A DNA stretch of 64,000 bases from Streptosporangium album (GTDB lineage Bacteria; Actinomycetota; Actinomycetes; Streptosporangiales; Streptosporangiaceae). Below are positions 1 to 18,902 of this stretch, piece after piece; the first letter of the stretch is position 1; each line of letters starts with the position of its first letter. The stretch covers positions 3,100,001 to 3,164,000 of the forward strand of contig NZ_JACHJU010000001.1 of assembly GCF_014203795.1 (NCBI RefSeq), in the 5' to 3' direction. The notes below the pieces were generated by a model. It had not been told where the DNA came from, ran no database searches, and worked only from the letters and a program-made list of their open reading frames with translations. Both the position numbers and the translations under genes were made by a program.

Positions 1-2
1 CG

Positions 3-350: not shown

Positions 351-363
351 TGTCTCAACCGGT

Positions 364-825: not shown

Positions 826-841
826 CGGCAAAGACCGTGGA

Positions 842-2050: not shown

Positions 2051-2067
2051 GAGGTCAAGGTTAGGGC

Positions 2068-2098: not shown

Positions 2099-2170
2099 CC
2101 GACGCACGCCCATCCCGCCCAATGCGCTGCGGGGTTGTCTCCGGCGTTTTCGCGGTATTTCGAGGAGCTG

Positions 2171-2645: not shown

Positions 2646-2668
2646 GGATAGCCAGGAGATGATTCAAC

Positions 2669-3661
2669 ATGAAGTACCGCACGATTGGCAGTGATCCGAT
2701 GACTCGCCGTGATGTCAGCGTGCTGAGCCTTGGCGCGATGCTGTTCGGTACCGCCACCGACGAGGCGACGTCGTTCGCCATCCTTGACCGCTTCGTCGAG
2801 GCCGGCGGGAATTTCATCGACACCGCCAATAACTACGCCTACTGGGTCAATGGCACTCAGGGGGGTGAAAGCGAAACCCTGCTCGGCCGCTGGCGACGCA
2901 GCCGCAACGTCACCGATGAGATCGTCATCGCCACCAAGCTCGGAGGGCGGCCCAACGCTCCGGCGACCGGCCTCAGCCACGACCTTGAGGGCTTGTCCGC
3001 CCAAGTGATCCGGGAATCCTCGGAGCGGAGCAGGGAACGGCTCGGCGTGGACAAGCTGGACCTCCTGTACGCACACGCATACCTCGAAGGTTCCAAGGTG
3101 CCGCCGGAGGAGACCGTCGAGGCATTCGCAGGTTTGGTCCAGGAAGGCACCGTGGGTCTCCTCGGGGCGAGCAACCACTGGGCCTGGCGACTCGAGCGGG
3201 CCCGGAACCTGGCGGCCACGGCGGGGCTGCCCGGCTATGAAGTCCTGCAGTACCACCACTCCTACCTGCGTCCGCGCACCGATCTGCCGACGCTGCGCTC
3301 CAAGGACGGAAACCTCGGTGTGGTCGGCGGGAACCTGCTCAGCTATCTGAGAGCCGAGCCCGCACTCACGCTGGTCGCCTACTCGCCCTTGCTGGGCGGC
3401 GGCTACGTACGTGAAGACAAGCCGCTCGATGCCGCGTTCGACCACCCAGGCACACCCCAGCGTCTCGCGGCACTGCAGGAAGTGGCGAAGGAGACAGGAG
3501 CGACCGTCAACCAGGTGGTGCTCGCCTGGCTCATCGGCGGCGATATTCCGATGATCCCGCTGGTCGGAGCCTCCTCAGTCGAGCAGCTGGAGGAGAGCCT
3601 GGCTGCAGTGGACCTGGAGTTGACGGCGGAACAGCAGGCGAAGCTCGACGCCGCGTACTGA
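2669..3661 (+). CDS. Aldo/keto reductase
   Basis: A 330-residue NAD(P)H-dependent oxidoreductase of the aldo/keto reductase superfamily, close to the usual length. The catalytic tetrad is visible as Asp51 and Tyr56 (DTANNYAYW), Lys90 (IATKLGG) and His136 (LLYAHAY). Coenzyme-binding segments follow, including AYSPLLGGGYVR and the C-terminal IPLVGASSVEQLEESL. It probably reduces aldehydes or ketones; the substrate cannot be read from sequence. An AGGAG box at 2654-2658 precedes the ATG. The divergent MerR gene and its operator upstream suggest inducible expression, although the operator now first drives the truncated copy. Confidence 0.92.
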   Translation: MKYRTIGSDPMTRRDVSVLSLGAMLFGTATDEATSFAILDRFVEAGGNFIDTANNYAYWVNGTQGGESETLLGRWRRSRNVTDEIVIATKLGGRPNAPATGLSHDLEGLSAQVIRESSERSRERLGVDKLDLLYAHAYLEGSKVPPEETVEAFAGLVQEGTVGLLGASNHWAWRLERARNLAATAGLPGYEVLQYHHSYLRPRTDLPTLRSKDGNLGVVGGNLLSYLRAEPALTLVAYSPLLGGGYVREDKPLDAAFDHPGTPQRLAALQEVAKETGATVNQVVLAWLIGGDIPMIPLVGASSVEQLEESLAAVDLELTAEQQAKLDAAY

Positions 3662-3989
3662 CACTCCACCACATTCGGCATTCTTCGCACCGCGTGATGG
3701 AGGTGCCCATGCGTCGCTATGTACATGGAGACGAGGAGAGCCGCACATGCCTGGACACGCGTGAGCCGGGATGCTCCTCGAGCCAGTGCCGACGCGGATC
3801 GGAGACGCCCCGACTCCCGTTCCCGTGAGTTTCCCATGCGCGGATCTTGCTAACGCAGGTGCTAACAGCAGCCCTGGACGCCGATGGACAGCGGTAGAAG
3901 ACGATCAGGACGATGTGGGCCCTGATCAGGAATTCAAGAGCACCAGTGGACGTCGTAAGACGATCCCGAACTGGCTACGGATCAGAAGG

Positions 3990-4381
3990 TGGTTATGACG
4001 GCTTGGAACGGCCCCACTCGGACGGCTTGAGCTGGACCCACCCGACCTCGTTGTTGATCTCGGAAACTCGATGTCGGCCTGAACTGGCCCCACCCCGAGA
4101 TGCGACGTCCAGAGGCTCCCCAAGGCCCCAACGCCGTAGTTCGGCGCGAGGGTGTCGCCCGCCCTGCACGACGCCAGCCCCCGCGCCCGCTGAGCGGGCG
4201 ATGCCCTCGCCTGGCAGGGGTTCGGGGACGGCAGTCCCCGGGTCCACAGACTGTACTGTCGTCGGCGCTTCCGGCTGACCAGGGGTGGGGCCAAATCAAG
4301 CCGTCACTCCGATTTTCCGATGATCGCCAAGTGGTCCCAGGTCAAGCCGTCCAAAGGGGCCAAATGGAACCGTCCTAGCCA
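3990..4381. mobile_element. IS21-like non-autonomous element (MITE)
   Basis: A 392-bp insertion has TG...CA ends and is flanked by the 6-bp target duplication AGAAGG (3984-3989 and 4382-4387). Its ends are imperfect inverted repeats about 50 bp long containing repeated ACGGCTTGA-like blocks separated by GGCCCC, the multi-repeat end structure typical of IS21 elements. No istA or istB reading frame remains. Removing it restores an uninterrupted tRNA-Arg-like sequence identical to the right-hand copy near 17541. Confidence 0.75.
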
Positions 4382-4426
4382 AGAAGGTTGGGGTTTCGAG
4401 TACCTCCGGCCGCACAGCAGGTCAAA

Positions 4427-4458
4427 GGCCCTCCGGGATGATCCCGGGGGGCCTTTTT
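4427..4458 (+). terminator. Rho-independent terminator after the tRNA remnant, left copy
   Basis: The arms GGCCCTCCGGGA and TCCCGGGGGGCC form a 12-bp stem (one T-G wobble) around the loop TGA, followed by five T residues at 4454-4458. It lies where a terminator normally follows a tRNA gene and is preserved in both repeat copies. Confidence 0.85.
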
Positions 4459-4615
4459 CGTGCCCGTGCAGCAGCGTTGTACAGCAACGCGGGCTCACAC
4501 AGGCGATCTGCTACGGACAGCACGCGTCAAGGCCGGGGCGGCGTAGTCGGAGCGAGAAGGACGAACATCAAGGGCCAGCGCCCAAGCCCCGGCCCTCCGA
4601 AGGCGACAACCTTGC

Positions 4616-5401
4616 TCAGGCACCGCCGAGGTCACCCCGGAGACGGCGAACCCACTCCGCGGGGAAGACCTGCTCAAGCCGCTCTCTGCTGGTCTCCAAC
4701 ATCCCCTCCTTCGCCAGGGGAAGGAGTGCGCCGTTCTGGACCGCCGTGTGATTTTCGGGAGCCGGGCAGATGAGGACGGCGAGGATCCGACACGTCCGTT
4801 GCACCTCCTCGACCCCGGTGGCATGGACCATGCTCTTGATGGGGCCCCACGCCGTCTGTACGGCAAGAGCCACCAGCGCTTCGAGGAGAGGGCTGCGACG
4901 CTCATCATTCCGAGACTTGATGATAGCCGCCGTCACGTATTCGGGTATTCGGTCCATGGCTTTCGAGAACTCCTCAATACCCTCGGCCAGGGCCACGAGG
5001 AGATCGCACCAGAAGTGATTAGTGAGGATTCTTCTGGTTTCTCGTGGCCTGCCGCCGCCGAATCTCTTGTCCAGTTCGCTGATCACGGAGCCGGTAAGGA
5101 GGTCGCCGACTTCCTGGATGTGTTCGATGGTGCTTGGATTTTCGGACAGCCAGTCGATGAGATCGACTGTTGCACTGTCGGTGGCGGCTGCCTGTCTGGG
5201 CTTGGATGGCTCTCGTTGTCCCCTGGGGGTTTGGGTCTTAGCCCAGTCGGAGTCGCTGCGGTCTCTTGCCTCCTGGCGACTGACCGGAGAGGGATCGCGG
5301 GCCAAGGTGATGCCTTGGGGCCAACGGTGCTTCGTCCCGCCACAGGCGGAACATCGGCACTGATGCAGCTTGGCGTTCTCACAACGTGCAGGGTGCGTCA
5401 T
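4616..5401 (-). CDS. Hypothetical protein with N-terminal Cys/His motif
   Basis: A 261-residue protein of unknown function. The N-terminus has Cys7, Cys15, Cys17 and Cys20 with His25 (CENAKLHQCRCSACGG), a probable zinc-binding knuckle. A low-complexity Ser/Arg/Pro linker (35-75) leads to a helical region about 80-260 with LIDWLSENPSTIEHIQEVGD. No enzymatic motif is seen. Similar Cys-rich N-termini occur on accessory proteins in actinomycete islands, but that gives no function. It lies alone just inside the left att-like repeat, and the AT-rich DNA upstream (5430-5550) suggests recent acquisition with its own promoter. Confidence 0.6.
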   Translation of the reverse strand: MTHPARCENAKLHQCRCSACGGTKHRWPQGITLARDPSPVSRQEARDRSDSDWAKTQTPRGQREPSKPRQAAATDSATVDLIDWLSENPSTIEHIQEVGDLLTGSVISELDKRFGGGRPRETRRILTNHFWCDLLVALAEGIEEFSKAMDRIPEYVTAAIIKSRNDERRSPLLEALVALAVQTAWGPIKSMVHATGVEEVQRTCRILAVLICPAPENHTAVQNGALLPLAKEGMLETSRERLEQVFPAEWVRRLRGDLGGA

Positions 5402-5548
5402 TCGCCCTCCATCACGTTCGGTGTGAAGGCGAACTGAGCAGCTCGCCGGAAATCTTATTCTTTTAAATCACAAAAAACGAATGGCGAGATCGTCGCGATA
5501 GTTAGTTCGATATGTCTTTTCGGCTACGAGTAAAACTCTTGCATGCGA

Positions 5549-5582
5549 AAAATGCCCTTGGGGCGATCCCAAAGGGCATTTT
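5549..5582. terminator. Bidirectional terminator hairpin
   Basis: The stem AATGCCCTT/AAGGGCATT is extended by GGG/CCC across a single unpaired A. A runs on one side and T runs on the other give a U-tract in both directions. It ends transcription of the small minus-strand gene at 5601-5723 and insulates the promoter region of the next gene. Confidence 0.8.
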
Positions 5583-5600
5583 GTGGCAACGGATGATGAG

Positions 5601-5723
5601 CTACATCTCGCTTGAACCGTCGAGGCTCTGATTGAGCCGGTCGAGCGCCTTTCGCGTTTCCGGGGAGGGAATCTGAGCCTGAATCCACCGAGCGTTATCA
5701 GGTGAGGGCTGGACCGTAGACAT
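5601..5723 (-). CDS. Small hypothetical protein (40 aa)
   Basis: A 40-residue reading frame starts MSTVQPSPDNARWIQAQIPS and ends RLNQSLDGSSEM. It has a GAGGG ribosome-binding site about eight bases before the ATG and a strong terminator 20 bp after its stop. A ribosome site, compact frame and terminator make it more than a chance frame. No family was recognised. Its upstream DNA is cut by the IS1380 element, whose end lies about 20 bp before the start codon, so its native promoter may be lost or replaced. Confidence 0.5.
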   Translation of the reverse strand: MSTVQPSPDNARWIQAQIPSPETRKALDRLNQSLDGSSEM

Positions 5724-5741
5724 GACGATGCCCTCTGACCT

Positions 5742-7351
5742 GGCAGGATGGGAGTTCTCTACGCTTCCAGCCGCCGAATCAAGAGGGCACGTCGTAAGTG
5801 CGATTGTCTCACGCTCCCGCCCACACCCATGCGATCTTCGATGACCAGCACACGGTCGCCTACGCCGGCCTGCTGCCGGTGATGCGCCTGGCCGAGCGCT
5901 GTGACCTGGCCGGTCTGGCTCAGGAGCACGTGACCATCGCCGACCGACTCGGGGTGAATGCCCCGCTGAAAATCGGCTCGATCGTGGCCGGGATGATCGC
6001 CGGGGCCGACAGCATCGATGATCTGGACGTGCTGCGCCACGGCGGGATGGATAAGTTGTTTGCCGGGATCCGCGCCCCCTCCACGCTCGGGTCGTTTCTG
6101 CGCTGTCTGACGTGGGGCAACGTGCGGCAGATCGGGAAGGTCGGCCGCCGCCTGCTGGCCCGTCTGGCCGCGCACACACCGCTGCTGCCCGGCGTGGACG
6201 TGCTGGCGTTCCTCGATCTGGACTCGATGCAAAAACGGATTTACGGGCCGACCAAACAGGGCGCCGGGTTCGGGCACACCAAGATTCAAGGCAAGAGCCT
6301 GCGGGTCCGCGGTCTCAACGTGCTCGCCTCGGCCCTGTCCACCCCACTGGCCGCCCCGGTCATCACCGCCAGTCGGTTGCGCGGCGGCACCGCCAACTCC
6401 GCCCGCGGCGCAGACACCTTCGTGACCGAGTCGATCAATACGGCCCGGGAGGCCGGAGCCACCGGCATCCTGCTCTGCCGAGGCGATGCGGCCTACTACA
6501 GCGCCAAGGTCATCGGCGCCTGCCGGCGAGCCGATGTCCGGTTCTCCTTCACCGCGAAGATGGACCCCAAAATCAAGGCGGCGATCGCCGCGATCCCCCA
6601 GGGCGCCTGGACCCCGATCAGCTACCCCAACGCCATCTTGGACGAGGAATCCGGGCAGTGGATCTCCGATGCCGAGGTCGCCGAGACCCGCTACACCGCG
6701 TTCACCTCCAAGAAGGGGCAGGCCGTAACCGCCCGCCTGATCGTGCGCCGGGTCAAACGACTGGGTGAGCAGACCGACCCCGGCCACCACCCGTGCTATC
6801 GCTACCACGCCGTGTTCACCGACACTCCGTATGAGCTGATCCAGGCCGAAGGACAGCATCGTGATCACGCGATCATCGAGCAGATCTTCGCCGATCTGAT
6901 CTCCGGGCCGCTGGCTCACCTGCCCTCCGGTAATTTCGCGGCCAACGCCGCCTGGCTGGCACTGGCCACGATCAGCCACAACCTGCTCCGCGCCGCCGGT
7001 TGCCTGTCCGGAGCCCGCTGCGCACGAGCACGTGGAGCCACTCTGCGCCGCCACCTCATCGCCGTACCCGCCCGCCTCGCCCGGCACGGGCGCGGCCATA
7101 TCACCCTCCACCTGCCCGGCCACTGGCCCTGGCAGCCCGCCTGGATGAACCTCTTCGACGCGCTTCGCTCGCCACCGCTCGCCCGAGCCGCTTGATATCC
7201 CATCTCACAGGCACCACCCCGCCAGCACCTTGACGGCCTACCCAGCCACCGGCGACACCGCCACCGACCGCCCCGAACCGCATGACCCGGACAAGCCGCA
7301 GAACCCGCCAGCGGCGGCCCCATCACGCCCGAAAACAGGACTCCACCTGCC
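5742..7351 (+). mobile_element. IS1380-family insertion sequence (ends tentative)
   Basis: A complete IS1380-type transposase gene is flanked by imperfect inverted ends: GGCAGGATGGGAGT at 5742 on the left, and on the right the complement of GGCAGGTGGAGT ending at 7351. The resulting 1.6 kb is normal for the family. No target duplication could be defined, so the limits may be off by several bases. The element separates a small gene from the C-terminus of the degenerate integrase. Confidence 0.6.
5798..7195 (+). CDS. IS1380-family transposase
   Basis: A 465-residue DDE transposase. Family blocks are FLDLDSMQKRIYGPTKQGAG (first Asp) with GFGHTKIQGKSLRVRGLN, then ILLCRGDAAYYSAKVIGACR (second Asp). 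Near the C-terminus are HRDHAIIEQIFADLISGPLA (catalytic Glu) and NAAWLALATISHNLLRAAG. The length is full and the frame unbroken, so this copy may still be active. It catalyses cut-and-paste movement of its own element. Confidence 0.92.
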   Translation: MRLSHAPAHTHAIFDDQHTVAYAGLLPVMRLAERCDLAGLAQEHVTIADRLGVNAPLKIGSIVAGMIAGADSIDDLDVLRHGGMDKLFAGIRAPSTLGSFLRCLTWGNVRQIGKVGRRLLARLAAHTPLLPGVDVLAFLDLDSMQKRIYGPTKQGAGFGHTKIQGKSLRVRGLNVLASALSTPLAAPVITASRLRGGTANSARGADTFVTESINTAREAGATGILLCRGDAAYYSAKVIGACRRADVRFSFTAKMDPKIKAAIAAIPQGAWTPISYPNAILDEESGQWISDAEVAETRYTAFTSKKGQAVTARLIVRRVKRLGEQTDPGHHPCYRYHAVFTDTPYELIQAEGQHRDHAIIEQIFADLISGPLAHLPSGNFAANAAWLALATISHNLLRAAGCLSGARCARARGATLRRHLIAVPARLARHGRGHITLHLPGHWPWQPAWMNLFDALRSPPLARAA

Positions 7352-7403
7352 GAACACCGAGAGAAACGGCCCTCATGGAGGAATCGAACTTAGAAACGAT
7401 CAT

Positions 7404-8468
7404 TCAAAGACGCTCGGTGGATTCAGGCTGAGTGTAGACATCCATGGTCATCGAGATCTGCGAATGGCGCAGGATGCGCATCGCCACCCGAGGGTGGACG
7501 TCGAGGGCGGCCAGAAGCGAGGCGCAGGTGTGCCGGGTGTCGTGGACTCGGATGCGGGAGACACCCGCCTTGCGGCATTGAACCTCGAAGGATCGGTTGA
7601 AGTTACGCGGCTCGATCGGCGTGCCGTTCCTCGTGGTGAAGACGAGATCGGAGTCCTTCCACTTCGCCCCAGCGGCCTTGCGGGCCTCCTCCTGAATTCG
7701 CTGGCGGTGTCTGAGCGCAGTGATGCACAGGCCGAGCAGCGGAAGCGATGCGGTGGAGTCGTCGGTCTTGGTCGTCTCGCGGTGGAGGAGCTCTCCCCTG
7801 ATGCGGTTGAGCTCTCGAGAGATCCACACTTGTTCTCCACCGAGGTCGATGCAGTCCCAGGCGAGCCCGAGCACCTCGCCCCGCCGCAGGCCCAGAACGA
7901 GGATCAACACGTAGGCCGCGTAGAGCGGGTCATCCTCCGCTCGCAGGTGTTCGAGGAACTTCCGCGCCTCGTCGACGCCCCATGCCACGTGCTGGCGCTT
8001 CTTCTTGGTCTTGCTCGGGCTGGGCAGGGTGGTCAACGCCGCGACGTTCTTGGAGATCAGCTCTTCCCGGATGGCGTTGCTGAGCGCGGAACGCAGGACG
8101 CGGCGGATGCCCGCGATCGTGCTCCGGGACGGATATCCCTTGCAGCATTTTCCGGTGGCGCAGCATCGCCGTTTGGCCTCCGCTCGCCGGTGATCCTTCT
8201 TCTGGTCACAGCAGGTGCAGAGGGTGACCAGCGTGTTCAGCCACGTCTGAACCTCGCGGACCGTGAGCTTGTCGAGCCGCTTCTTGCCCAGGCCAGGGAC
8301 GATGTAGAGCCGCACCAGCGGCTCATAGGCCACGTAGGTCGTCGGCTCCAGGTTGGGTTCGATCACATCGGCGAGCCAGCGCGTCAGGTACGCGGCAAGG
8401 GTGGGGTGCTTGGTCGGCACCGGCCGGACACACGGGTATGAGTTCGTCAGCGCCGAGCACCTGGACAA
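7404..8468 (-). pseudogene. AICE-type tyrosine integrase, truncated at both ends
   Basis: A 354-residue frame encodes a phage-type tyrosine recombinase. The core-binding domain has LGKKRLDKLTVREVQTWLNT. A Cys-rich insert follows (CTCCDQKKDH, then RRCCATGKCC), as in many actinomycete element integrases. The catalytic domain shows LVLGLRRGEVLGLAW (Arg), VHDTRHTCASLL (HxxR), ILRHSQI (His) and DVYT (Tyr). After the tyrosine the normal C-terminal helix is replaced by PESTERL next to the IS1380 end. The N-terminal arm-binding region is replaced by unrelated residues at the junction with a kinase fragment. Activity is doubtful; it probably once mobilised an element using the tRNA-Arg site. Confidence 0.75.
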
Positions 8469-8895
8469 ACTGCGCGACGCGGGGCGTCTGCTGGTCGAGA
8501 CCCGCCGCTACGGCAACGTCTACGCTATCGACCGCCAGGCCATCGAAGACCGCCACGCCGCCGGCTACGTCCCCGTCACGCACATGGGCAACATCCGCGA
8601 TCTGCGCCGACTCATCGGCACGGTTCCCGACTCCTGGCTTCGCGTACTGCTGTGGGTGCCGCGCGAGGTCACCGAACAGCGCTCCCAGGCCCGCGGGGAC
8701 GCCGACACCAGTAAGCGCCTGACCGCGTGGGACGAGACCCTCGCCGACCTGGAGGCCAACACCGACGCCGGGTTCTTTCATCTCCGTATCCATACCGACC
8801 AGCTCAGCCCCGAGGGCGCAGCGAAGGAGATCACGAGCGCCTACGATCAGTTGCGAACGGCCGGGCGTCTTCGCGAGGAGGCATGCCCCCCGTGA
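8404..8895 (+). pseudogene. Guanylate-kinase-like protein, N-terminus lost
   Basis: From about 8418 the frame reads VGTGRTHGYEFVSAEHLDKL, then ETRRYGNVYAIDRQAIEDRH and GYVPVTHMGNIRDLRRL, the nucleotide-binding and lid parts of a guanylate/nucleoside-kinase-like P-loop protein. The P-loop itself and about 30 preceding residues are missing, and the open frame simply continues into DNA antisense to the integrase start. Two genes thus lost their 5' ends at one junction near 8400-8440. Homologues occur beside AICE replication genes. Confidence 0.65.
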
Positions 8896-9043
8896 GCCGC
8901 GCCGCCACCTCCGACGGGATCAGATCCAACCGCCACCAGGTCCCGCAGTCGAAGCACCTCGCCCCCGTCCACACTCCGTCCAGGTCCGACGTCCATGACA
9001 CCGACCCGTGCGAGCATCCAGCGAAGGAGAGCCGCCCCGTCAC
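8831..9043 (-). CDS. Small hypothetical protein with CxxC motif
   Basis: A 70-residue protein starting at GTG 9043, chosen because an ideal AGGAGGTG ribosome site lies seven bases upstream; longer upstream starts have none. It contains GCSHGSVSWTSDLDGVWTGA and RCFDCGTWWRLDLIPSEVAA, so Cys10, His12 and a CxxC pair could bind zinc. Its 3' end overlaps the kinase fragment convergently by 65 bp. It resembles accessory proteins of actinomycete integrative elements; function unknown. Confidence 0.55.
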   Translation of the reverse strand: MTGRLSFAGCSHGSVSWTSDLDGVWTGARCFDCGTWWRLDLIPSEVAARLTGGMPPREDARPFATDRRRS

Positions 9044-9337
9044 CCTTCCACCTCCTGCGGCAACCACGTGATCGTTGGGGTTCCCATGTCTCCCCCGCCC
9101 CTGTCGGACCGCAGTACGGCCGGTGTCTCCGCTCTCGGAAGCCGGTCTCATCTACGGGGGCGCGCAGAGCGGTGTCCAACGGGGTGATTGAACACCGCTC
9201 CCAGAGGCCAGACCCGAGATCGGGTCACCACCGGTGGCAGTCGTCGAGGAGCGGGGGAGCAGAAGCCGGGAACCGCTTAGGATGATCCCCAGCAGGCGGG
9301 GCGACGAGATCCCTCTAATCTGTCGCCCCGCCCGACT

Positions 9338-9625
9338 TCAGCAGGCGTGCCCGGACAGCACCGCCGTCCAGGTTGCCTGAGCTTCGTTGATCGACATGAG
9401 CGCAGTTTCTTGGATCTGCGGCGCGCGGTCGAGCTGCACTGTCCGACGCAGGAACGCCCGTCCACCGCCGACGCACAGCTCATAGACCGTCGCCCGGCAC
9501 GAGCAGGTCCAGGCCATTGGCCGCACCCGCGCCAGCGACCGGTACGGCCCCTGCCACACCAACCGCACATGATCACGCTGTCGCATCGCCACATGCGGAC
9601 TCAAGCACTCGCTCACTGCGGCCAT
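9338..9625 (-). CDS. Hypothetical AICE-associated protein
   Basis: A 95-residue frame starting MAAVSECLSPHVAMRQRDHV, with a CSCRATVYELC segment that may hold a metal. The start at 9625 overlaps the end of the upstream gene by 13 bp, indicating translational coupling. No known domain was recognised. The pair with 9613-9936 and the divergent GntR gene form a small cluster of the kind seen in AICE regulatory regions. Confidence 0.55.
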   Translation of the reverse strand: MAAVSECLSPHVAMRQRDHVRLVWQGPYRSLARVRPMAWTCSCRATVYELCVGGGRAFLRRTVQLDRAPQIQETALMSINEAQATWTAVLSGHAC

Positions 9626-9936
9626 GCGCCGCCCTCTTCCGGCGCCGTGTGCTCCCGGCGAAGGTCGGCGTAGCGCAGGGCGACCCGGCGCGCGGCCTGG
9701 ACGGGCTCCAATGCTGGATGCCAGGCATAGATCGGTCGTCGTTGACGAGCGTTCCACTCGGTCCGCCACCAGAACCGCTGTCCGTCGCACCAGACAAGGA
9801 GTCCCGCCCACACCGCGACCACTGCCAGACCGTACCCGTCGTGAACATCGGCAGTGATCTCATGTTGGGCTAAAGCATCACGAAGCTCCTCAGCCGCATC
9901 TACCGCTCCCGTTTCGTCGAGTGAGGTTGTGACCAC
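9613..9936 (-). CDS. Hypothetical AICE-associated protein
   Basis: A 107-residue acidic protein (MVTTSLDETGAVDAAEELRD...) with central WAGLLVWCDGQRFWWRTEWN and C-terminal PALEPVQAARRVALRYADLR. It is probably soluble and has no catalytic motif. It is the first gene of a two-gene minus-strand unit divergent from the GntR regulator at 10085, with about 150 bp of AT-richer shared upstream DNA. Function unknown. Confidence 0.6.
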   Translation of the reverse strand: MVTTSLDETGAVDAAEELRDALAQHEITADVHDGYGLAVVAVWAGLLVWCDGQRFWWRTEWNARQRRPIYAWHPALEPVQAARRVALRYADLRREHTAPEEGGAWPQ

Positions 9937-9959
9937 GACTTACCTCCTGTCGGCGTCGC

Positions 9960-10080
9960 GCCCAGCATAAGCAATCTTTACTACCCCTGCCTACCCTTCA
10001 CCATTTTTTCCTACTCATGACGACCGGTACGCCTCGTAACGTCTGTTGACCTGGGGCTACCGGTCGCTTCCTATCGTTTG
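9960..10080. promoter_or_regulatory. Divergent promoter region between AICE genes and GntR regulator
   Basis: The 148-bp gap is locally AT-rich and pyrimidine-rich. CCTAC/CTACC words recur (about 9978, 9989, 10010 and 10057), as does a CCGGT core at two sites (10024 and 10059). A TTGACC (10047-10052) followed by TATCGT about 20 bp later is a weak promoter candidate for the GntR gene, whose start is close behind. The repeated half-site suggests autoregulation. Confidence 0.35.
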
Positions 10081-10084
10081 TGCT

Positions 10085-10378
10085 GTGATCCACTTCCGGC
10101 CTGATCAGCCCAAGTCAGAGCAGGTTCTCGCCGAGATGCGTCGACGCATTCAGACCGGCGACTACAAGCCCGGGTATCCCGTCCCGGGAGAGCCCCGCAT
10201 GGCCGAAGAATTCGGAATCGCCCGACGAACTGCCCGTAAGGTGATCAACGCCCTCATTGCCGATGGACTGGTCTACACCGTCCGCAATATTGGGACGTTC
10301 GTCGCCGACTCCAAGACCGGCGGACCACCCGAGCACATCGGGCCCGGAGACGACGACCAGGATCAGCCCGAAGGCTAG
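10085..10378 (+). CDS. GntR-family transcriptional regulator (KorSA-like)
   Basis: A 97-residue protein starting at GTG 10085 (VIHFRPDQPKSEQVLAEMRR). The GntR winged helix is clear: residues about 10-75 include IQTGDYKPGYPVPGEPRMAE and EFGIARRTARKVINALIADG, then VYTVRNIGTFV in the wing. There is no ligand-binding C-terminal domain, only a short acidic tail, as in the small GntR repressors of actinomycete conjugative elements that restrain transfer. Such regulators usually control their own gene and neighbouring excision/replication genes; here those partners are absent. Confidence 0.8.
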   Translation: MIHFRPDQPKSEQVLAEMRRRIQTGDYKPGYPVPGEPRMAEEFGIARRTARKVINALIADGLVYTVRNIGTFVADSKTGGPPEHIGPGDDDQDQPEG

Positions 10379-11560
10379 TCCTGTTTTCCGCACGTGGAGG
10401 TGACTGAGATCTCGGGCGTTGATGTTGATCGCAGGCCGGTCGTGGCGGTATGACCTGAAGCTTGTGAGACAACGTGCGCAGTGGGGTGCCCAGAGTGTGG
10501 AGAAGATGCTCGGGGCGTTGCCGGTGGTGGCCGATTTCTGCACCAGGTTGCGGATCCGGGAGATCGTGGATGAGGCCTGCCCGGTGCGTGACCTGGCCGA
10601 ACTCACTCATGGTCAGGTGATCGAGGTGTTGATCGCCAACCGGTTGACCTCGCCGTCTCCACTGGTCCATGTGCAGGACTGGGCGCGGGCGTGGGCGGTG
10701 GCCGAAGCCTTCGGCGTCGAGGCGGACCTGCTCAACGACGACCGGATCGGCCGGGCATTGGACGCGATCGCCCCCCACCTCGACCACATCGCGGGATCGG
10801 TCGGCCTGGCCGCGATCGAGGCGTTCGGCATCGATGTCACCCGGATGCACTGGGACATGACCTCGATCTCGCTGCACGGCGACTACGAACAGGCCGAACA
10901 GGGATTCGCGGCACCGAGGTTCGGCCACCCCAAAGATCGCCGCACGGATCTGAAGCAGATCCAGGCCGGCATCGCGGTCTCCGGCGACGGCGCGATCCCG
11001 GTGTTTCACCGGGCCTTCGACGGCGGCGCGGGCGAGGTCGGGCAGGTCGTCGGCGCGATGAAGCGGTTGCAGCGACTGGCCTCCCGCCGTGACCTGCTGA
11101 TGATCGGCGATTCCAAGCTGATCTCGTACGCGAACCTGGTGGCGATGCATCAGCAGCGGGTGAGCTTCATCGCCCCGGCGTCCAAGGCCTACGTGCCGGC
11201 CACGCAGTTGGCCGGGCTGAGCGTGGAGGTGGCCACCGCCGTCGACTACGTCGCTCAGCGTGATCAGGCCAAACCCGTCGATCAGCGTGGATCATGGCAT
11301 GTGCTGGAGGACACGCTGGAGCTGGCCGGCCCCCGGAAGAAGGACCCGCTCCTCACCCTGCGGCGGATCTTCGGGCATTCCTCCGCCCGGGCGCAGGCCG
11401 CGGCCGGAGCTCGGGCTCTGAAGCTGTCGCGGGCCCGTGAGGATCTCAACCGGCTGCAACGCGGGCTGGGATCGCGGCATTACCCGACCGCGGAGAAGGT
11501 CGCCGCCAAAATCGCCGTCATCAGCACGCAGCGGCGGGTCGGCGCCTATCTGATCACTGA

Positions 11561-12558
11561 GTCATTGTCAGCAACCGGCGTTCACGCTGGGTGACAGCTG
11601 CTTGTGAGCTTGCTCCCGGTGGAAGAGGACGAGCGCCGCGGCGACGATACCGCCGATCTTCCAAGGGCACTTGCTGACGTTCCGCAGTGCCTTGAACCGC
11701 ATCTTGAGCTGGGCGTTCGCTCGTTCGGCGAGGGCTCGGAGCGCACCGTGGACCTTGTTGTACTGGATCTGATCGTCGGTGAGTGTGCCACCCCGAGACC
11801 TCTTGTACGGCAGGCGAAACCCCATACCCGCATCGACGTAGCCGAGGTCGGCCAACGTGATCAGCCCGTCCTCGGCGGCCTTGGCCAGCGGGTCGAGGAG
11901 GCCGTGCAGGCGGGCACAGGTGAGATCGTGTTCACGGCCGGGCCGTACCTCAGAAGTCCACAGCGGGTCGCCGCCGGGGCTGGACAGGACCTGAATGTTG
12001 CCGCCGTGCTGCTTGTGTTTTCCACTCCACCACAGGTCGGCGCCGTTCGGGCCCAGGGCGCGGCAGCGGTCGGTTTCGATCAGCGTGCCATCCAGATGCA
12101 GGCGGGTGTAGCCGGCGGCCTTCGCCGCCGTGAGCGCCTCCTGTAGCGTCGGCGCCTGGGCCTTCAATACGGTGACCCCTTCTTCGACGTACCGATCACA
12201 GGTCGCGTGCGAGATGGCGTTATCGGCGGCCGGCCGGGCGATCCGAGCGCCGTCCACCAGCCAGCGGATGATCAGAACGGCCTGCTTGAACTCGCCCAGC
12301 GCCCGAGTGCCCGCGCGGGTGCGGCGCCGTACCCGCTCGGCGCGCAACAGCCCGGCCAGAAACAGCACAACCTCGCGCGGCATGTCCAACTCGGCTGTAT
12401 AGGTGATACTGGAGGTCACGTGAAGCCCTTGTGTGCGGTGCGGTGGATCCTTCGACAAGACCCACCCCTACCAGGGGCTTCACGCTTTTCTCTACTTGAT
12501 CACTCCCACGCCCGCCGTGATCGGCTACACACGGTCATCGACCGTTGCTGACAACGTC
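11561..12558 (-). mobile_element. IS5-like insertion sequence inside the IS1634 transposase
   Basis: A 998-bp element with inverted ends sharing TTGTCAGCAAC is flanked by the direct repeat TCACTGA (11554-11560 and 12559-12565; an eighth base G also matches). Excising it rejoins the IS1634 reading frame exactly. The length of the apparent target duplication is unusual for IS5-type elements, so the true ends could differ by a few bases. Confidence 0.75.
11568..12419 (-). CDS. DDE_Tnp_4-type (IS5-like) transposase
   Basis: A 283-residue transposase starting at GTG 12419 (VTSSITYTAELDMPREVVLF). An N-terminal helix-turn-helix includes ADNAISHATCDRYVEEGVTV. The DDE domain has YTRLHLDGTLIETDRCRALG (Asp), KHKQHGGNIQVLSSPGGDPL, LITLADLGYVDAGMGF (Asp) and ALRALAERANAQLK (Glu). 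It is full length and uninterrupted. A paralogue with the same layout lies at 13166-13993. Confidence 0.88.
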   Translation of the reverse strand: MTSSITYTAELDMPREVVLFLAGLLRAERVRRRTRAGTRALGEFKQAVLIIRWLVDGARIARPAADNAISHATCDRYVEEGVTVLKAQAPTLQEALTAAKAAGYTRLHLDGTLIETDRCRALGPNGADLWWSGKHKQHGGNIQVLSSPGGDPLWTSEVRPGREHDLTCARLHGLLDPLAKAAEDGLITLADLGYVDAGMGFRLPYKRSRGGTLTDDQIQYNKVHGALRALAERANAQLKMRFKALRNVSKCPWKIGGIVAAALVLFHREQAHKQLSPSVNAGC

Positions 12559-13002
12559 TCACTGAGGTCGGGACCGATCCGGCCACCGGTAAGCCCACGT
12601 TGACCTGGGAGCTCAGCCAAGAGGCGATCGACGCCGAAGCCGCAGCCGACGGCTGGTACGCCTTGTTGTCCAACCTTGATCCCGGCCAGGCCGATGCCGC
12701 GCAGGTCCTGCTGCTGTACAAAAAGCAGGAATCGGTCGAGCGCCGCTACGCGGCGTTCAAGGGGCCGCTCGCCGTGAGCACCCTCTACCTGAAAGGAACG
12801 ACGCCTGCTATATCTGGACCCTCCGTATTACGTCAAGGGCGAAGGGCTTTACGACAATTTCTATCAACATGCGGACCATGTAATGGTCGCCGAGGCAATT
12901 CATCGCACAGGCGGCCCTTGGATTGTCTCATACGATGCCGCGCCCGAGATTTTAGATCTATATAAGGGATGCGAATCACTACGTTACTCGCTGGGCTACA
13001 GT

Positions 13003-14012
13003 GAGGTGATCTCAGCAAGATCAATAAGGGCGGTTGTGATTCGATGTCTTCAAAGCGACGCCGACAGACATGAATCGGGATGGATCGCGATCCCCCTGAA
13101 ATAGGCGTGGAGCTTTCGGTAGAAGAGGTCTCACCACAAGTCTTCTTCAGCCCAGAAAGCCCCACGTGATCACCTATCGTGCCACGCTCGACGTCCCTCG
13201 GGAACTGGTTTGCCATCTCTCCCTGCTGCTGGCGGCCGAACGCCGCCGACTGGGCACCCGTTCGGGTTCCAGGGCTCTGACCTGTTTTGAGCAGGCGGTG
13301 ATGGGATTGCGCTGGTTCCGCGACCGCACCGACCGGGCCGCCCTCGGCCGCGACCACGGCATCTCCCGCGCCACCGCCTACCGCTACATCGACGAGGTCA
13401 TCGACGTCCTGGCCGACCAGGCACCCGACCTGCACCACGCCTTGCAACGCGCTGTCGACGAGGGCCTCACCCACCTGATCCTGGACGGCACCGTCATCGC
13501 CACCGACCGCTGCCGGGAGAAGACCATCAGCGTCAAAGGCGAACCCATCGACCTGTGGTACTCCGGAAAGGCCCACCACCACGGCGGCAACATCCAGGCC
13601 CTGTCCGCGCCCTGCGGCCTGCCGCTGTGGGTGTCCGAGGTCGAACCCGGATCGGTTCACGACCTGACCGCCGCCCGCGCACACGTCCTGGGAGCGTTGT
13701 ACAAGGCCGCCGCCGACGGGCTGCCCACCTTGGCCGACTCCGGCTACGACGGCGCCGGCATCGGCATTCTCACCCCGGTCAAACAACCCTCCGACGGCCG
13801 GCCCCTCGACCTCGACACCCGCACCCGCAACGCACTCCTGCGCGCCCTGCGCTGCCTGGGAGAACGAGGCTTCGCCCTGCTCACACAACGCTGGCGCACC
13901 CTCCAGCGCATCACCGCCAGCCCCAGCAGAATCGGCGACATCGTCAAAGCCGCGCTCGTTCTCACCCATTTCGAACACGGCTACTTGAAATGAAAGTCGC
14001 TGAGATCACCTC
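13003..14012 (+). mobile_element. IS5-like insertion sequence inside the adenine methylase
   Basis: A 1010-bp element has perfect 14-bp terminal inverted repeats GAGGTGATCTCAGC (13003-13016 and 13999-14012) and a 3-bp target duplication AGT (13000-13002 and 14013-14015). Removing the element and one AGT restores the methylase frame. Intact ends and transposase suggest it may still be mobile. Confidence 0.9.
13166..13993 (+). CDS. DDE_Tnp_4-type (IS5-like) transposase
   Basis: A 275-residue transposase starting at GTG 13166 (VITYRATLDVPRELVCHLSL). The helix-turn-helix DHGISRATAYRYIDEVIDVL is followed by the DDE core: GLTHLILDGTVIATDRC (Asp), GKAHHHGGNIQALSAPCG, GLPTLADSGYDGAGIG (Asp) and LRCLGERGFALLTQRW (Glu). 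It is related to but clearly diverged from the copy at 11568-12419, so they are separate elements. It is complete within its own IS ends. Confidence 0.9.
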   Translation: MITYRATLDVPRELVCHLSLLLAAERRRLGTRSGSRALTCFEQAVMGLRWFRDRTDRAALGRDHGISRATAYRYIDEVIDVLADQAPDLHHALQRAVDEGLTHLILDGTVIATDRCREKTISVKGEPIDLWYSGKAHHHGGNIQALSAPCGLPLWVSEVEPGSVHDLTAARAHVLGALYKAAADGLPTLADSGYDGAGIGILTPVKQPSDGRPLDLDTRTRNALLRALRCLGERGFALLTQRWRTLQRITASPSRIGDIVKAALVLTHFEHGYLK

Positions 14013-14153
14013 AGTGCGGCCAAAGCCAGCTTGGGAACTGAAGTGATGTTTTTTTCTCCAGATCTTGTTCAGCCCGATGTACTCTCTGTTTCCGGCATTT
14101 CAAACCAGACGGTTTTGGATGCCAGGGATTCGTTGCAGCCTGAACTCTGGTAG

Positions 14154-14587
14154 GTCACCGTTTCATTGGCCGGTACTCCTAGTTGAGGGAAGCCGAGGGC
14201 GATCAGCATATTAATTCTGCCGCGCCGCTTCCGGTGCTCGGGCCTGGCGGCCCTGTGCTCCGGGTCGGGTGTCTTGCCACCGGATGACGGGGGTCTCTCT
14301 GTACACGCTAGGGAATCGGTAGACACCCGTACGTAGCGTGCACGGTAATCACCGTGAAAGGCGTGGCGTGAATATCTCTCTCTGATGCGAGAAGTACGCG
14401 GGATGGCCAGATTAACAGCACCAGACGAGTTGGGCTCGCATCCAGGTCGGACCTAGTAAGCCAAAGGCGCGGTCACCGATCTCCTAATTCAGACGCCATT
14501 CATCGTGACCGAACTTCACTGGTTGCGTGAGTTGAGTTCGTGGTGATCGCTGACTTCGCTACCGCCGCGCAAGACTGAATGATCGCT
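14154..14587. other. Intergenic stretch without a supported gene
   Basis: This 434-bp gap follows the methylase remnant and precedes the 3' end of the OLD nuclease. It contains the second copy of the dispersed repeat (14228-14296). No open frame here has conserved motifs or a ribosome site. It probably represents decayed element DNA. Confidence 0.5.
14228..14296. repeat. Dispersed short repeat, copy 2
   Basis: This copy matches 1122-1187: CTTCCGGTGCTCGGGCCTGG followed by CGGCCCTG is identical, and after a 4-base insertion the tail CTTGCCACCG matches again. The same DNA thus occurs at both ends of the mobile cluster, 13 kb apart. Confidence 0.6.
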
Positions 14588-16480
14588 TTATCCTTCTGCG
14601 CAAAGCGTCATGGCTCGAGTAATGACATCGCTGATCCAAGCCGGCGGATCGGTGTTAGCGTTCTGGGAGGCATGCCGGTAGGTCATCGGGTGCTTGCCGT
14701 CCATGCCGTTGTCGTTGGCGATGAGATCTTGGTGAGCTTCTCCCCAATCCGGCCACTCGGCTTCGAGGTAGGTCTCCAAGGTATCGTGAAAAACCGCATA
14801 GTCGTCGTACACCTTGGTCTGCGGGAAGTCCTCGACGTGTCCTTTCAAATACCCGAGCAGCATACGATTTGCCTGCATGCGCTGCCGTACTCCGTCGGCA
14901 ATTTTATCTGGAGCCTTATTCTTGCTGCGGTCACGATGCTCTCCACCAGCATCACCGTCGAATATGACGAAACAGGGCACCCCGAGTTCAGCGAGAACCG
15001 CATGCGCGAGCGGCAGAATCCTCTTGCTCCCAGCGTCAACGACCACGATTCCGTTCCTGTTGAGAGGATCGTGCCGTAGGCCACACCCCTCGAAGAATCC
15101 CTGATCAGTGCCGCCCTCAACAAGTAGCGCGGCACGGGCAAACAGCGCTTCTGGAAGTGACTGCAAACAAACCCGAGTGAGCTGCCGATAAACCTCATCG
15201 GTTTTGAAAGCGCTGTTGAGACGTTGAGCGATGGCTTCTTTGGACGTCGATTGGATCTGCACCGAAGCGCCGACGCTATCCGAGAGAGTCCTAGTCATCC
15301 GACGGATCTCCGTGAAGCCCTCGGGCTCCAAGAAGTACGGACTATGGGTCGCATAAGAGACTTGTACGCCGTGTCCGTCCTTACGCGCGATCTTGCGCAG
15401 TACGGTAGCGAATGCCCGGGCCTGGATAGGATGCTGGAACAGTTCCGGTTCCTCGATCGCCAGGAAGATGGTTCGATCATGTTCGGTAGCCTTGCTCTCG
15501 GCCAGTAGCCGTAGAGCGGAGATAAGTAGCGCGCGCTGAAAGCCGTGTCCCTGCTGATCCACCCGGGTTGTTGCCCTGCCATCCAGGACAGAGACCTTGA
15601 ATTGGACCTGTGGCATCTTGAACTCAGGGACAACGGGGGACACGTTAATGCTCCGGCCACTGGTGAGCTCACCAACCGCTGTAGTCAGGTCATCCGACAA
15701 GGTTTCGAGCTGCTCGCTGAAATGCTTGGTGTGGATGGTTTCCCGATTTGCATTGAAGATTATACCGAGTTCCGTAAGTTCTTTGTCCGCCTCGGTTCGA
15801 TCCACGGCTTGCTCAAGAATTCGTCCGATGATCGAGCTCTTGATATCACGGCTCTCATCGCCGGCCCGCAGGTCGGCACTGACGAAAACGTAGTCGAAGA
15901 GTCCAGTCATCTTCGCCTGGCCAGCGAAGCCGAAGAAGTGGGTATCCGCCTCGATCTCGGTGCCCTGGAGTTCGTGGGGATGGGCGGTCTCCCAAGCGAT
16001 GAGCGCAGTGTCTACCTCTGCCGCACTCCGGACAGCCGGCAGACCAAGGTCAGGTCGCTCTGTTCGCAACTCGTTGTAGCAGTCACGCCGAGCCTTCGCG
16101 CCTTGCACATCCCTGACCTTGATGAACGCCGGATAGGCCAAGGCCCGACCGGAAAGCTTGTCGTACCCTCTTTCCCAGCGCCGCCACAGCCGTACGGTCT
16201 CCACGCCACCAGCGGCGTATTTGCCGAGCGCTACTCGGTCGACGTCGGTGAGGTCGCAGAACTCCACCTCGACTGTGATCCGCTCCGGATCTGCGCCGGT
16301 GGAGACATCGTCGCTCGTGATCGGTGAATTCCGGTCTCCATTGAAGAACCAGTCGAGCGCGCGCAGCACAGACGACTTCCCGACCCCATTCGGTCCGATG
16401 AAGGTCGTGATGTCATCGAACCGGATGTCCACGTCCCGCAGACACCGATACCCCTGAATCCTCACCCGTTGAATCCGCAC
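14588..16480 (-). CDS. OLD-family ATPase/TOPRIM nuclease
   Basis: A 630-residue class 1 OLD-type protein (overcoming lysogenisation defect). The ATPase half has Walker A GPNGVGKSS (29-37), an ABC-like signature around 308-318 (VDQQGHGFQRA), Walker B IFLAIEEPE (338-346) and the switch His in YATHSPYF (about 379). The TOPRIM half has ALLVEGGTDQGFF (Glu455) and FVIFDGDAGGE (Asp508/Asp510), the metal-binding acidic residues of nucleases. OLD proteins act in anti-phage defence; GajA of Gabija is the class 2 relative, encoded with a helicase. No UvrD-like helicase gene is adjacent, so this is a solo class 1 protein. The ATG at 16480 begins MRIQRVRIQGYRCLRDVDIR, the family N-terminus. All key residues are present. 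Confidence 0.92.
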   Translation of the reverse strand: MRIQRVRIQGYRCLRDVDIRFDDITTFIGPNGVGKSSVLRALDWFFNGDRNSPITSDDVSTGADPERITVEVEFCDLTDVDRVALGKYAAGGVETVRLWRRWERGYDKLSGRALAYPAFIKVRDVQGAKARRDCYNELRTERPDLGLPAVRSAAEVDTALIAWETAHPHELQGTEIEADTHFFGFAGQAKMTGLFDYVFVSADLRAGDESRDIKSSIIGRILEQAVDRTEADKELTELGIIFNANRETIHTKHFSEQLETLSDDLTTAVGELTSGRSINVSPVVPEFKMPQVQFKVSVLDGRATTRVDQQGHGFQRALLISALRLLAESKATEHDRTIFLAIEEPELFQHPIQARAFATVLRKIARKDGHGVQVSYATHSPYFLEPEGFTEIRRMTRTLSDSVGASVQIQSTSKEAIAQRLNSAFKTDEVYRQLTRVCLQSLPEALFARAALLVEGGTDQGFFEGCGLRHDPLNRNGIVVVDAGSKRILPLAHAVLAELGVPCFVIFDGDAGGEHRDRSKNKAPDKIADGVRQRMQANRMLLGYLKGHVEDFPQTKVYDDYAVFHDTLETYLEAEWPDWGEAHQDLIANDNGMDGKHPMTYRHASQNANTDPPAWISDVITRAMTLCAEG

Positions 16481-16896
16481 CCGTGAATCCCATAGCTTTC
16501 AACGTGATCACGCAACCGGAATTCAGAAAGGAGCGTGAAATGTAGCGACTAATCCTAAATGGGATGATTTATCATCTTATGGAGCTAAGAAGTTACGAGA
16601 TAGGGGGAGCCCCAGCCGCATCGTGTAGGAACGACAGCTTGGCGCTCGCTCCATAGGATGGCTGGATACTTTCGTAAGCTTCTGGCTCAGCCTGAGCCGA
16701 AGACGGAGTTGATGTCAGGCCGCAGGCATCTTCATGCTGATAACCCTGCCGCTGCGGGTTGCTGTTGCTCTGCCATACAGCAGCGCCGTACAGCAACATC
16801 ACCTGACATGCTCACACCCCGCCAACCCACATCTACCGTCCGAGCAGGATGGTAGGCCATCGACGAGGGGCATGCCCTTGCCTACGGATCAGGTGG
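16481..16896. other. Intergenic region upstream of the OLD gene
   Basis: The first 150 bp are AT-rich for this genome and probably carry the OLD promoter, although no clear -35/-10 pair was fixed. At about 16759-16797 GTTGCTG and CAGCAAC form an inverted repeat. The segment CAGCAGCGCCGTACAGCAAC closely matches the flank inside both att-like repeats (CAGCAGCGTTGTACAGCAAC near 4470 and 17628), two changes in 20 bases. No gene is supported. Confidence 0.5.
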
Positions 16897-17382
16897 TCAG
16901 GTGTCGTACAAGCCGTCCCAGGGTTCGTAGAAGCCGAGGTCGTCCGGGTAGAGCTCAGCGTGTTCGGTGCCTTCGAAGGTCTCGATGACGAGGCCGAACA
17001 GCACGCCGTCGACGTCGCGGCGGAAGGGCCGGATGGCGATGTCGCCGAAGCGGAGGCCGGGGAGGGCATTGAGCCATTGCTTCAACCGCTCCTGCGCTGC
17101 GTCGACGGCGGCCCGGTAGTTGTCGTCGGTTCCGGTGCGCTCGATGCGGGAGTCGAGGTGGTGGCCGGCGGCGTCGAAGGTGTGCAAGACGGCGTACCAG
17201 CGTTTGTGTGCCTGCCAGTCGTCGGTGTGTGTGTAACCCTCCGGGAAGGCGGCGACGACGGAGCCGAGGAACTGTCCGCTCTCCCAATGGCCGATGGTGT
17301 CGGTGTGGTAGTCGGGTTCGTAGCTGATGGGGATGATCTCGGGGACTGCCATGTGCGGGAGAGTAGTGATCGGGTCCGACAT
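16897..17382 (-). CDS. Hypothetical protein, element-associated
   Basis: A 161-residue acidic, tryptophan- and tyrosine-rich protein. From the ATG at 17382 it reads MSDPITTLPHMAVPEIIPIS, then HWESGQFLGSVVAAFPEGYT, WYAVLHTFDAAGHHLDSRIE and a C-terminal EHAELYPDDLGFYEPWDG. No domain was recognised. An alternative start is the ATG at 17352 (MAVPEIIPIS); neither has a good ribosome site. It is the last gene before the right att-like repeat, the place where passenger genes of AICEs often lie. Confidence 0.6.
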   Translation of the reverse strand: MSDPITTLPHMAVPEIIPISYEPDYHTDTIGHWESGQFLGSVVAAFPEGYTHTDDWQAHKRWYAVLHTFDAAGHHLDSRIERTGTDDNYRAAVDAAQERLKQWLNALPGLRFGDIAIRPFRRDVDGVLFGLVIETFEGTEHAELYPDDLGFYEPWDGLYDT

Positions 17383-17400
17383 AGCCTTTGCGCTGCGCGT

Positions 17401-17748
17401 GATCTTGCTAACGGAAGTGCTAACACCGTCCCTGGACGCGAGTGGACATCCACAGAGGACGATCAAGTGTGAGATGTCTCTGAGCTGGTTTTTCTGACAC
17501 CTGTGGACGTCGGTGGACGTTCTCGAACTGGCTACGGATCAGAAGGTTGGGGTTTCGAGTACCTCCGGCCGCACAGCAGGTCAAAGGCCCTCCGGGATGA
17601 TCCCGGGGGGCCTTTTTCGTGCCCGTGCAGCAGCGTTGTACAGCAACGCGGGCTCACACAGGCGATCTGTTACGGACAGAACGCGTCAAGGCCGGGGCGG
17701 CGCAGTCGGAGCGAGAAGGACAAACATCAAGGACCAGCGCCCAAGCCC
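17401..17748 (+). repeat. att-like direct repeat, right copy, with tRNA-Arg(ACG)-like 3' half
   Basis: It begins with CTTGCTAACGGAAGTGCTAA, the same tandem GCTAAC boxes as the left copy, and has GTGGACGTCGGTGGACG before CGAACTGGCTACGGATCAGA (anticodon arm, anticodon ACG). The T-arm, terminator and 130 bp of flank follow. The 208 bp from 17541 are gaplessly alignable to 4382-4589 with five mismatches, all in the last 80 bases. Here the tRNA-like part is uninterrupted but still lacks its 5' half. Recombination between the two copies would delete about 13.2 kb. Confidence 0.75.
17586..17617 (+). terminator. Rho-independent terminator after the tRNA remnant, right copy
   Basis: Identical hairpin to the left copy: GGCCCTCCGGGA, loop TGA, TCCCGGGGGGCC, then TTTTT at 17613-17617. 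Confidence 0.85.
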
Positions 17749-17793
17749 TCTCTGTCAGACTGCACGCCGGGCGGCCCGGTCACGCCACGGCGG

Positions 17794-18783: not shown

Positions 18784-18902
18784 GATCGATCAGTGTGTCA
18801 GATGCCTGCAATGGCGTAAATCTGCCGCCATAAGACCTAGCCTGAGCATCGAACTCACCGATAGAAACGGACTTGTAAGACATACCTGTCGGGGAGGCAG
18901 TG

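Follow-up and report, generated by a model that had tools for sequence, protein, structure and literature searches.

Two direct repeats that lie 13 kb apart and contain part of a tRNA-Arg(ACG) gene raise the question of how attachment-like sequences of this kind have come to lie in a stretch of the Streptosporangium album chromosome in which ARAGORN detects no tRNA. The stretch, referred to as the window, comprises 64 kb (contig NZ_JACHJU010000001.1, positions 3,100,001 to 3,164,000) of a genome of 9.02 Mb in 14 contigs, designated G000. We consider it probable that the repeats belong to a tandem array of actinomycete integrative and conjugative elements (AICEs) with attP-type joints, and that a later flip of an interval centred on the replication origin (oriC) has stranded the tRNA-Arg gene away from this array. 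The AICE upstream of the first joint is termed element A, and the 13-kb island between the joints B; positions in seven digits or preceded by C1 are genomic, the others refer to the window.

The 208-bp repeats (copy 1, 4382-4589; copy 2, 17541-17748) share 97.6% identity, and their five mismatches, at repeat positions 130, 140, 163, 182 and 193, all fall into the distal 80 bp, as a preliminary description of this DNA had recognised. It had also correctly noted tandem GCTAAC boxes with TGGAC words ahead of each repeat (3843-3866 at joint 1 and 17401-17424 at joint 2). Its further claim, that the repeat includes a tRNA 3' half with anticodon loop and terminator, holds for the rest of the core and the terminator, but the ACG loop lies outside the 208-bp unit: the anticodon-loop fragment CTACGGATC of tRNA-Arg(ACG) is situated immediately upstream of copy 2, with the GCTAAC pair about 120 bp further up, and at copy 1 the loop and the right arm (3843-3989) are parted from the repeat by an insertion of 392 bp (3990-4381, plus strand). 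This insertion, which had escaped the preliminary description, splits the att core between AGAAGG at 3984-3989 and AGAAGG at 4382-4387; it has imperfect inverted ends (local alignment score 41 vs a mean of 14.6 and a maximum of 25 in 300 shuffles) and partial relatives elsewhere in the genome.

The homology between the two joints begins about 150 bp before the repeat (3837-3990 vs 17394-17547, 75.9%), so that each joint consists of right arm, core, terminator and left arm and is more than a right junction. The right arm has the form GATCTTGCTAAC-N5-TGCTAAC with TGGAC words, the left arm the form GTGCAGCAGCG..TACAGCAACG. At joint 1, the Arg-type end of A contributes the GCTAAC pair, the TGGAC words and the tRNA-Arg(ACG) core down to AGAAGG (3843-3989, plus strand, 75-76% to 17401-17547), and copy 1 (plus strand) contributes the rest of the core, a terminator at about 4424-4454 (placed by analogy with the fold of copy 2), the left arm (4466-4489) and the left end of B. 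At joint 2, the right arm of B (17401-17540, plus strand), with its GCTAAC pair, TGGAC words and the ACG anticodon-loop part of the core, is followed by copy 2 (plus strand), which comprises core, terminator, left arm (17625-17648) and, cut short, the left end of another, third element of Arg type. Copy 2, which we take as the stump of that element, breaks off at 17748, and at this truncation point 16 bp (17746-17761, plus strand) are identical to the end of a 1.6-kb insertion inside A (3098773). With right and left arms together at both places, the joints read as complete attP-type joints between elements, each with right arm, tRNA-Arg(ACG) core, terminator and left arm. The earlier view that both ends are of the same type and do not form a left/right pair thus stands, but not that this type is a right junction only; its preference for tandem integration over one simple element is borne out by the two arms at each joint and by the homologous elements on either side of joint 1. 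Genome-wide, a 362-bp query around copy 2 has returned 10 matches. The two repeats alone span the whole 208-bp unit among these; eight are partial matches, including the right arm of joint 1. Plasmid and phage collections have yielded partial matches only (three records covering 13-23% of the query, and one covering 12%).

The array does not adjoin its target. The only intact tRNA-Arg(ACG) seen has been located through the repeat query, as opposed to a whole-genome tRNA scan, at C1:2714562-2714635 on the minus strand, reversed and 390 kb off. The destruction of tRNA-Arg in place, considered as another cause of its absence, is not needed, given the intact gene at 2.7146 Mb with flanks that match relatives in inverted order. 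Element A occupies positions 1-3842 of the window with its right part (plus strand; Pfam, tRNA and attL sequence) and starts outside it at tRNA-Thr(CGT), C1:3084725. Its order is a left arm at tRNA-Thr(CGT) (3084725-3084801), integrase, excisionase, RepSA-like initiator, DUF2637, FtsK-type protein, GntR and cargo, the latter part including, by Pfam, a MerR regulator (1631-2449, minus strand) and an aldo/keto reductase (2669-3658, plus strand). Integrase and excisionase thus lie near attL in a tRNA gene, as looked for in an AICE (PF00589, PF14659, HTH_17/excise). The initiator matches RepSA (NF041486) with 531 bits and an E-value of 1.9e-159, below the equivalog cut-off of 700, and the transfer protein is of FtsK/SpoIIIE type (PF01580, E 9.8e-23, above cut-off), its match to TraB (NF041214) reaching 46 bits vs a cut-off of 800. 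An equal tRNA core at both ends is lacking. Because its left end is Thr(CGT)-type and its right joint carries an Arg(ACG) core, we class A as a chimera made up of two elements.

Both the mismatched cores of A and the separation of the array from its tRNA gene would be explained by an inversion, which had likewise gone unseen in the preliminary description and has emerged from comparison with two single-contig relatives, G003 and G002. In G003, with gaps in the local matches, the outer left flank (4005001-4035295 = G000 2658277-2696169) and the outer right flank (4501122-4518000 = 3143913-3154471) run in the same direction as in G000. The inner ends are reversed, one starting at tRNA-Thr (4045107-4064611 = 3084836-3065001) and the other ending at tRNA-Arg (4427842-4438618 = 2724388-2714560). 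G002 has shown the same pattern at the tRNAs and on the right side, its left marker having been placed by a separate marker search. With inner ends reversed and outer flanks collinear, the 370-kb interval between the two tRNAs appears, as judged from these alignments, to be inverted vs G003 and G002.

The likely crossover site is a group II intron-like segment of which each island has a copy, the two being inverted relative to each other (2707438-2711040 vs 3098772-3095171). The copies are 99.89% identical over 3603 bp and continue for 771 bp at 95.7% after the 1.6-kb insertion in the second copy, an insertion that we read as an insertion sequence (IS). The end of this segment reaches into the window (375-1142, plus strand; RVT_1/GIIM, group_II_RT_mat) and forms, together with 3095171-3098772, the inverted repeat to 2706677-2711040. 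Homologous recombination there would give exactly the swapped halves that have been seen. The proposed history would run as follows. AICEs of one integrase family would insert into the 3' part of tRNA-Arg(ACG), tRNA-Thr(CGT) or tRNA-Thr(TGT), and joints of the observed kind would be built when the integrase inserts an element at a core in which a sister element already sits: joint 1 from the right arm of one Arg-type element, the Arg core and the left arm of B, and joint 2 from the right arm of B, the Arg core and the truncated left end of the third element. The array would formerly have stood downstream of tRNA-Arg(ACG). A crossover between the inverted 3.6-4.4 kb intron-like copies in the tRNA-Thr(CGT) and tRNA-Arg(ACG) islands, across oriC, would then, to go by geometry and identity, have flipped the origin-centred interval. 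As a result, tRNA-Arg would now lie 390 kb off, and the left half of a Thr-type AICE would be joined directly to an Arg-type right half, the two together making up element A.

The site choice assumed here agrees with the family to which the elements belong, a Streptosporangiaceae AICE family that uses tRNA-Arg(ACG), tRNA-Thr(CGT) and tRNA-Thr(TGT). Intact sites of this family consist of the tRNA, its terminator and then a left arm GTACAGCARCG-N-TACAGCAACG; the arm has been found at tRNA-Thr(CGT) and tRNA-Thr(TGT) in this genome, and at all three tRNAs in named Streptosporangiaceae. Fourteen of 18 named integrase loci contain one of the three tRNAs (six Arg, four Thr CGT, four Thr TGT), one has tRNA-Gly only and three have no tRNA; the left arm (up to 3 mismatches) is present in 17 of the 18, L107 being without it. 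Comparable joints of right arm, core and left arm have been observed in Streptosporangium amethystogenes (L111; Thr(CGT) core, about 4 kb from tRNA-Thr(CGT)) and in G012, 8 kb from tRNA-Arg. In an integrase tree of 21 rows, A clusters with the Thr(CGT) rows (100/98), and B joins the S. subroseum and S. minutum rows, both of which have Arg cores (100/99). Site labels, which are our own and taken from the core before each left arm, require four changes on this tree vs a mean of 9.2 after shuffling, a value as low being reached in none of 200 shuffles. The Arg rows are not monophyletic, and nor are the Thr(TGT) rows. Four of the Arg rows (L102, L110, L112, L113) are labelled by an Arg core although their loci contain no intact tRNA-Arg, and L107 has been treated as a group by itself. 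A second left-arm type (TTGCTAAC-N4-TTGCTAAC) occurs at C1:2714470 of this genome (L014), directly 3' of tRNA-Arg, and at C1:4045086 of G003, directly 3' of tRNA-Thr(CGT); it is read as another element family sharing both tRNA sites. In G004, six matches to the tRNA-Arg core region lie on one strand within 57 kb (C1:9640949-9698073), one of them with a right arm, and this stretch is read as a long accretion array at tRNA-Arg.

Origin-centred symmetric inversions occur in bacteria, and the present one has been compared across further genomes by means of an outer-left marker (L, 2664001-2676000), an outer-right marker (R, window about 52.9-54.5 kb) and tRNA-flank markers. Only the last part of R has been used, as the marker is scattered in some relatives (first part elsewhere in G002, G004 and G006, smaller parts in G014). 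All markers could be placed in eight genomes, and G001, G005 and G007-G011 stand outside this comparison. The uninverted order L-Thr-Arg-R has been found in five of the eight (G002, G003, G004, G006, G014) and the inverted order L-Arg-Thr-R in two (G000, G012). Intact tRNA-Arg and tRNA-Thr have been confirmed by ARAGORN in G000, G002, G003 and G012, and tRNA-Arg in G015; the tRNAs of G004, G006 and G014, and tRNA-Thr of G015, derive from BLAST matches running through the tRNA. A dnaA-dnaN tree of seven genomes (without G015) sets G000 and G003 apart from the rest (99.7/100), so that two flips are the minimum on this tree; the position of G012 among the remaining genomes is weak (60/62).

The two tRNAs enclose dnaA and dnaN in all seven genomes examined (in G006 with only part of dnaA in the stretch). 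Distances from the dnaA-dnaN gap, calculated from its coordinates, are nearly equal on the two sides in G000 (Arg 184 kb, Thr 186 kb) and G003 (Thr 196, Arg 197), and roughly so in the others, with Thr and Arg at 240 and 189 kb in G012, 139 and 174 in G002, 284 and 253 in G014, 316 and 283 in G004, and 185 and 242 in G006. In G000 the inner ends are thus reversed, the outer flanks collinear, and oriC inside and near the middle, as an origin-centred inversion demands. Tentatively, and with somewhat less than even confidence, we propose that the tRNA-Thr(CGT) and tRNA-Arg(ACG) AICE hotspots are recurrent flip points of the Streptosporangium origin domain, at which AICEs are reassorted into chimeras with mismatched ends: both tRNAs would lie at similar distances on either side of oriC and point away from it, and incoming related elements would keep supplying inverted homologous sequence for repeated flips between lineages. 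As a separate observation, a right arm with an Arg core and the tRNA-Arg gene of G015 lie 180 kb apart in opposite directions (C1:3659564 and 3839829), the former probably being another stranded Arg joint.

Several points weigh against the history of a tandem array followed by an inversion. G015 has a third order (one of the eight) that fits neither arrangement, and G013, as far as its two tRNAs show, fits neither as well: they point in the same direction, about 65 kb apart. A methyltransferase marker is far from tRNA-Arg in G006, which means that the right flank, too, has been displaced in some genomes. In G012, no long inverted repeat has been found in 40 kb on the Thr side and 47 kb on the Arg side, the only match being 107 bp (84%) at the arms; the G012 flip would consequently have used another site, or its traces are gone, and the G000 crossover site may not apply generally. 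For the Thr-type AICE, a right end with its Thr core has not been found in the stretches scanned (2.644 to 2.756 Mb), which calls for a further rearrangement; a Thr(CGT) core with right arm sits instead at 0.435 Mb. Finally, the left arm next to tRNA-Arg today is of the other type (GCTAAC pair at 2714470). Together, the missing Thr(CGT) right end, the fragments at 0.42-0.435 Mb and the other left-arm type show that more events than one flip have taken place. The region of these fragments, C1:414000-442000 (L015, L016), contains on the minus strand a right arm with a Thr(CGT) core (434984-435141), a right arm with a Thr(TGT) core (430016-430172) and an Arg core (419668) beyond which lies a GCTAAC pair, and no intact tRNA in the stretches there; it reads as a graveyard of element ends, among which may perhaps be the Thr(CGT) right end that is missing elsewhere.

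A further difficulty is that a 3.6-kb repeat at 99.9% is a place where an assembler could create a false inversion. If it did, the array would in the cell still adjoin tRNA-Arg, and tRNA-Thr would have kept its own AICE. The repeat (99.89% over 3603 bp) lies exactly between the swapped halves, and each island would be more coherent in itself in the uninverted order; yet G012 is equally inverted although no long inverted repeat occurs in its compared stretches, and no N has been found in the 25 stretches of G000 counted, which would be compatible with a misjoin as well. We regard such an error as unlikely, and the tandem-AICE reading does not depend on it. An Arg-type circle, as a dimer, might alternatively have recombined homologously into the Thr(CGT) AICE, by way of regions common to A and B (int and further segments, 74-84% identity); this would likewise put Arg joints beside the Thr left end, and without any inversion. 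The inverted inner ends with collinear outer flanks vs G003 and G002 would, however, be left unexplained, as would the agreement of the right flank of the window with the side faced by tRNA-Arg in those genomes, and the Thr core predicted at the right end of the array has not been found in the window, so that we give this route very little weight. One ordinary genomic island bounded by attL and attR, suggested by two direct repeats 13 kb apart with an integrase between them, is rejected as next to impossible, since neither end has an intact tRNA, both ends have right and left arms, and the first repeat borders immediately on a sister AICE.

The stacking of AICEs at a single tRNA gene is already known. 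Tandem AICEs have been described at tRNA-Arg in Streptomyces avermitilis (Sav3708/Sav3728) and at tRNA-Lys in Frankia (Fean5518/Fean5534), the latter with closely related integrases and excising singly or together (PMC3218068). The array described here resembles these pairs in its stacking but differs, in so far as they are characterised there, in that it stands apart from its tRNA gene, that one joint is split and that B is decayed. Within a Streptomyces population, AICEs have likewise been reported to accumulate at a tRNA-Arg gene (PMC9513070), a case that is similar in its several elements, its remnant with flanking direct repeats and its defective AICEs. According to that work integrase sequence and site do not correlate, whereas within the one integrase family considered here sites cluster on the tree; the word "inversion" is absent from its main text.

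Flips driven by mobile elements have been reported in pneumococcus, where prophage-linked inversions arise between bacterial and prophage lytA and are asymmetric about the origin (PMC8637289). Common to both cases is the recombination of inverted homologous sequences, at least one of them in a mobile element, that flips chromosomal DNA; in contrast to the pneumococcal inversions, as far as that account describes them, the ends are here AICE islands in two tRNA genes nearly equidistant from oriC. In the open-licence literature we have found no report of a flipping of the origin domain between two AICE hotspots and none of integrative and conjugative elements of Streptosporangium with an inversion, and among the reports listed that link chromosomal inversions to genomic islands, tRNA genes and the replication origin none is, by title, about AICEs; the origin-domain flip, unlike the tandem AICEs, has thus not been found in print. 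Conjugative elements in tRNA genes may accordingly reshape the chromosome around the replication origin, and att repeats without an adjacent tRNA may be stranded halves of rearranged arrays. The reading predicts strains in both orientations and AICE chimeras with Thr-type left and Arg-type right ends.

Island B is filed, on its gene content, as a decayed AICE, a defective remnant. An integrase and a left end related to tRNA-Arg(ACG) elements are present; the complete set of int, rep and tra is not, as rep and tra have not been found among the ORFs scanned or by DNA comparison with A, whose rep, xis and tra have no DNA match in B. The tyrosine integrase (7407-8507, minus strand; PF00589, 79% to that of A) is truncated on its N-terminal side and interrupted near the C terminus, with its tail at about 5604-5672, by an IS1380-family element (5673-7432, plus strand, transposase 5798-7192; NF033539, ends and junction sequence) with a short target duplication read as CTCAG. 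B is probably immobile now, because its core is split by the insertion, its integrase is truncated and IS1380-interrupted, and no rep or tra has been found. A segment of about 1.5 kb adjoining the truncated int (8412-9909, plus strand) is homologous to A in DNA comparison (83%, then 74%). The left end is closest to the S. minutum element, with 93% over all 208 bp of the repeat unit, 93% (DNA) in the next, uncharacterised gene (4616-5401, minus strand; no Pfam or PADLOC match) and 95% in int, and it also matches in part the S. subroseum element at an intact tRNA-Arg. In the comparison of presence and absence in relatives on which the preliminary description had made its reading of the island depend, none of six segments of B has a match at the tRNA-Arg sites of G003 and G002 (40 kb each), which are other species and not strains of this one, apart from short att pieces and, in G003, a 73-bp int piece.

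Further along B follow a GntR-type regulator (10046-10375, plus strand; PF00392), a DUF4277 ORF (10419-11591, plus strand; PF14104), which we take to be an IS transposase, an IS with a DDE_Tnp_4 transposase (11558-12561, minus strand; 99.7% to 2703997-2705003) and a second DDE_Tnp_4 transposase (13100-13990, plus strand), so that three genes besides IS1380 are read as transposases. An OLD-like ATPase-TOPRIM nuclease (14591-16480, minus strand; PF13175, PF20469; PADLOC Old, E 4.7e-48) is a candidate for phage-defence cargo, and an uncharacterised ORF lies beside the right arm (16900-17466, minus strand; no Pfam or PADLOC match). About 0.6 kb inside this arm, at 16775-16892, there is an extra left-arm-like pair (ATACAGCAGCGCCGTACAGCAACA) with about 110 conserved bp; a similar pair is found about 0.45 kb from right arms in G003 and Nonomuraea glycinis (L109). 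Right of the island, a LuxR-type regulator and a BNR-repeat gene (17808-20031) form a block common to G004, G018 and G023 (76-81% DNA identity), the 13-19 kb compared containing no long match besides it; the LuxR gene has been rejected as a syntenic flank marker, as it and the next gene occur as a block elsewhere in these genomes. Further into the right flank, window positions of about 21.7-36.7 kb correspond to G003 4474933-4495091 in a separate local inversion of about 15-20 kb.

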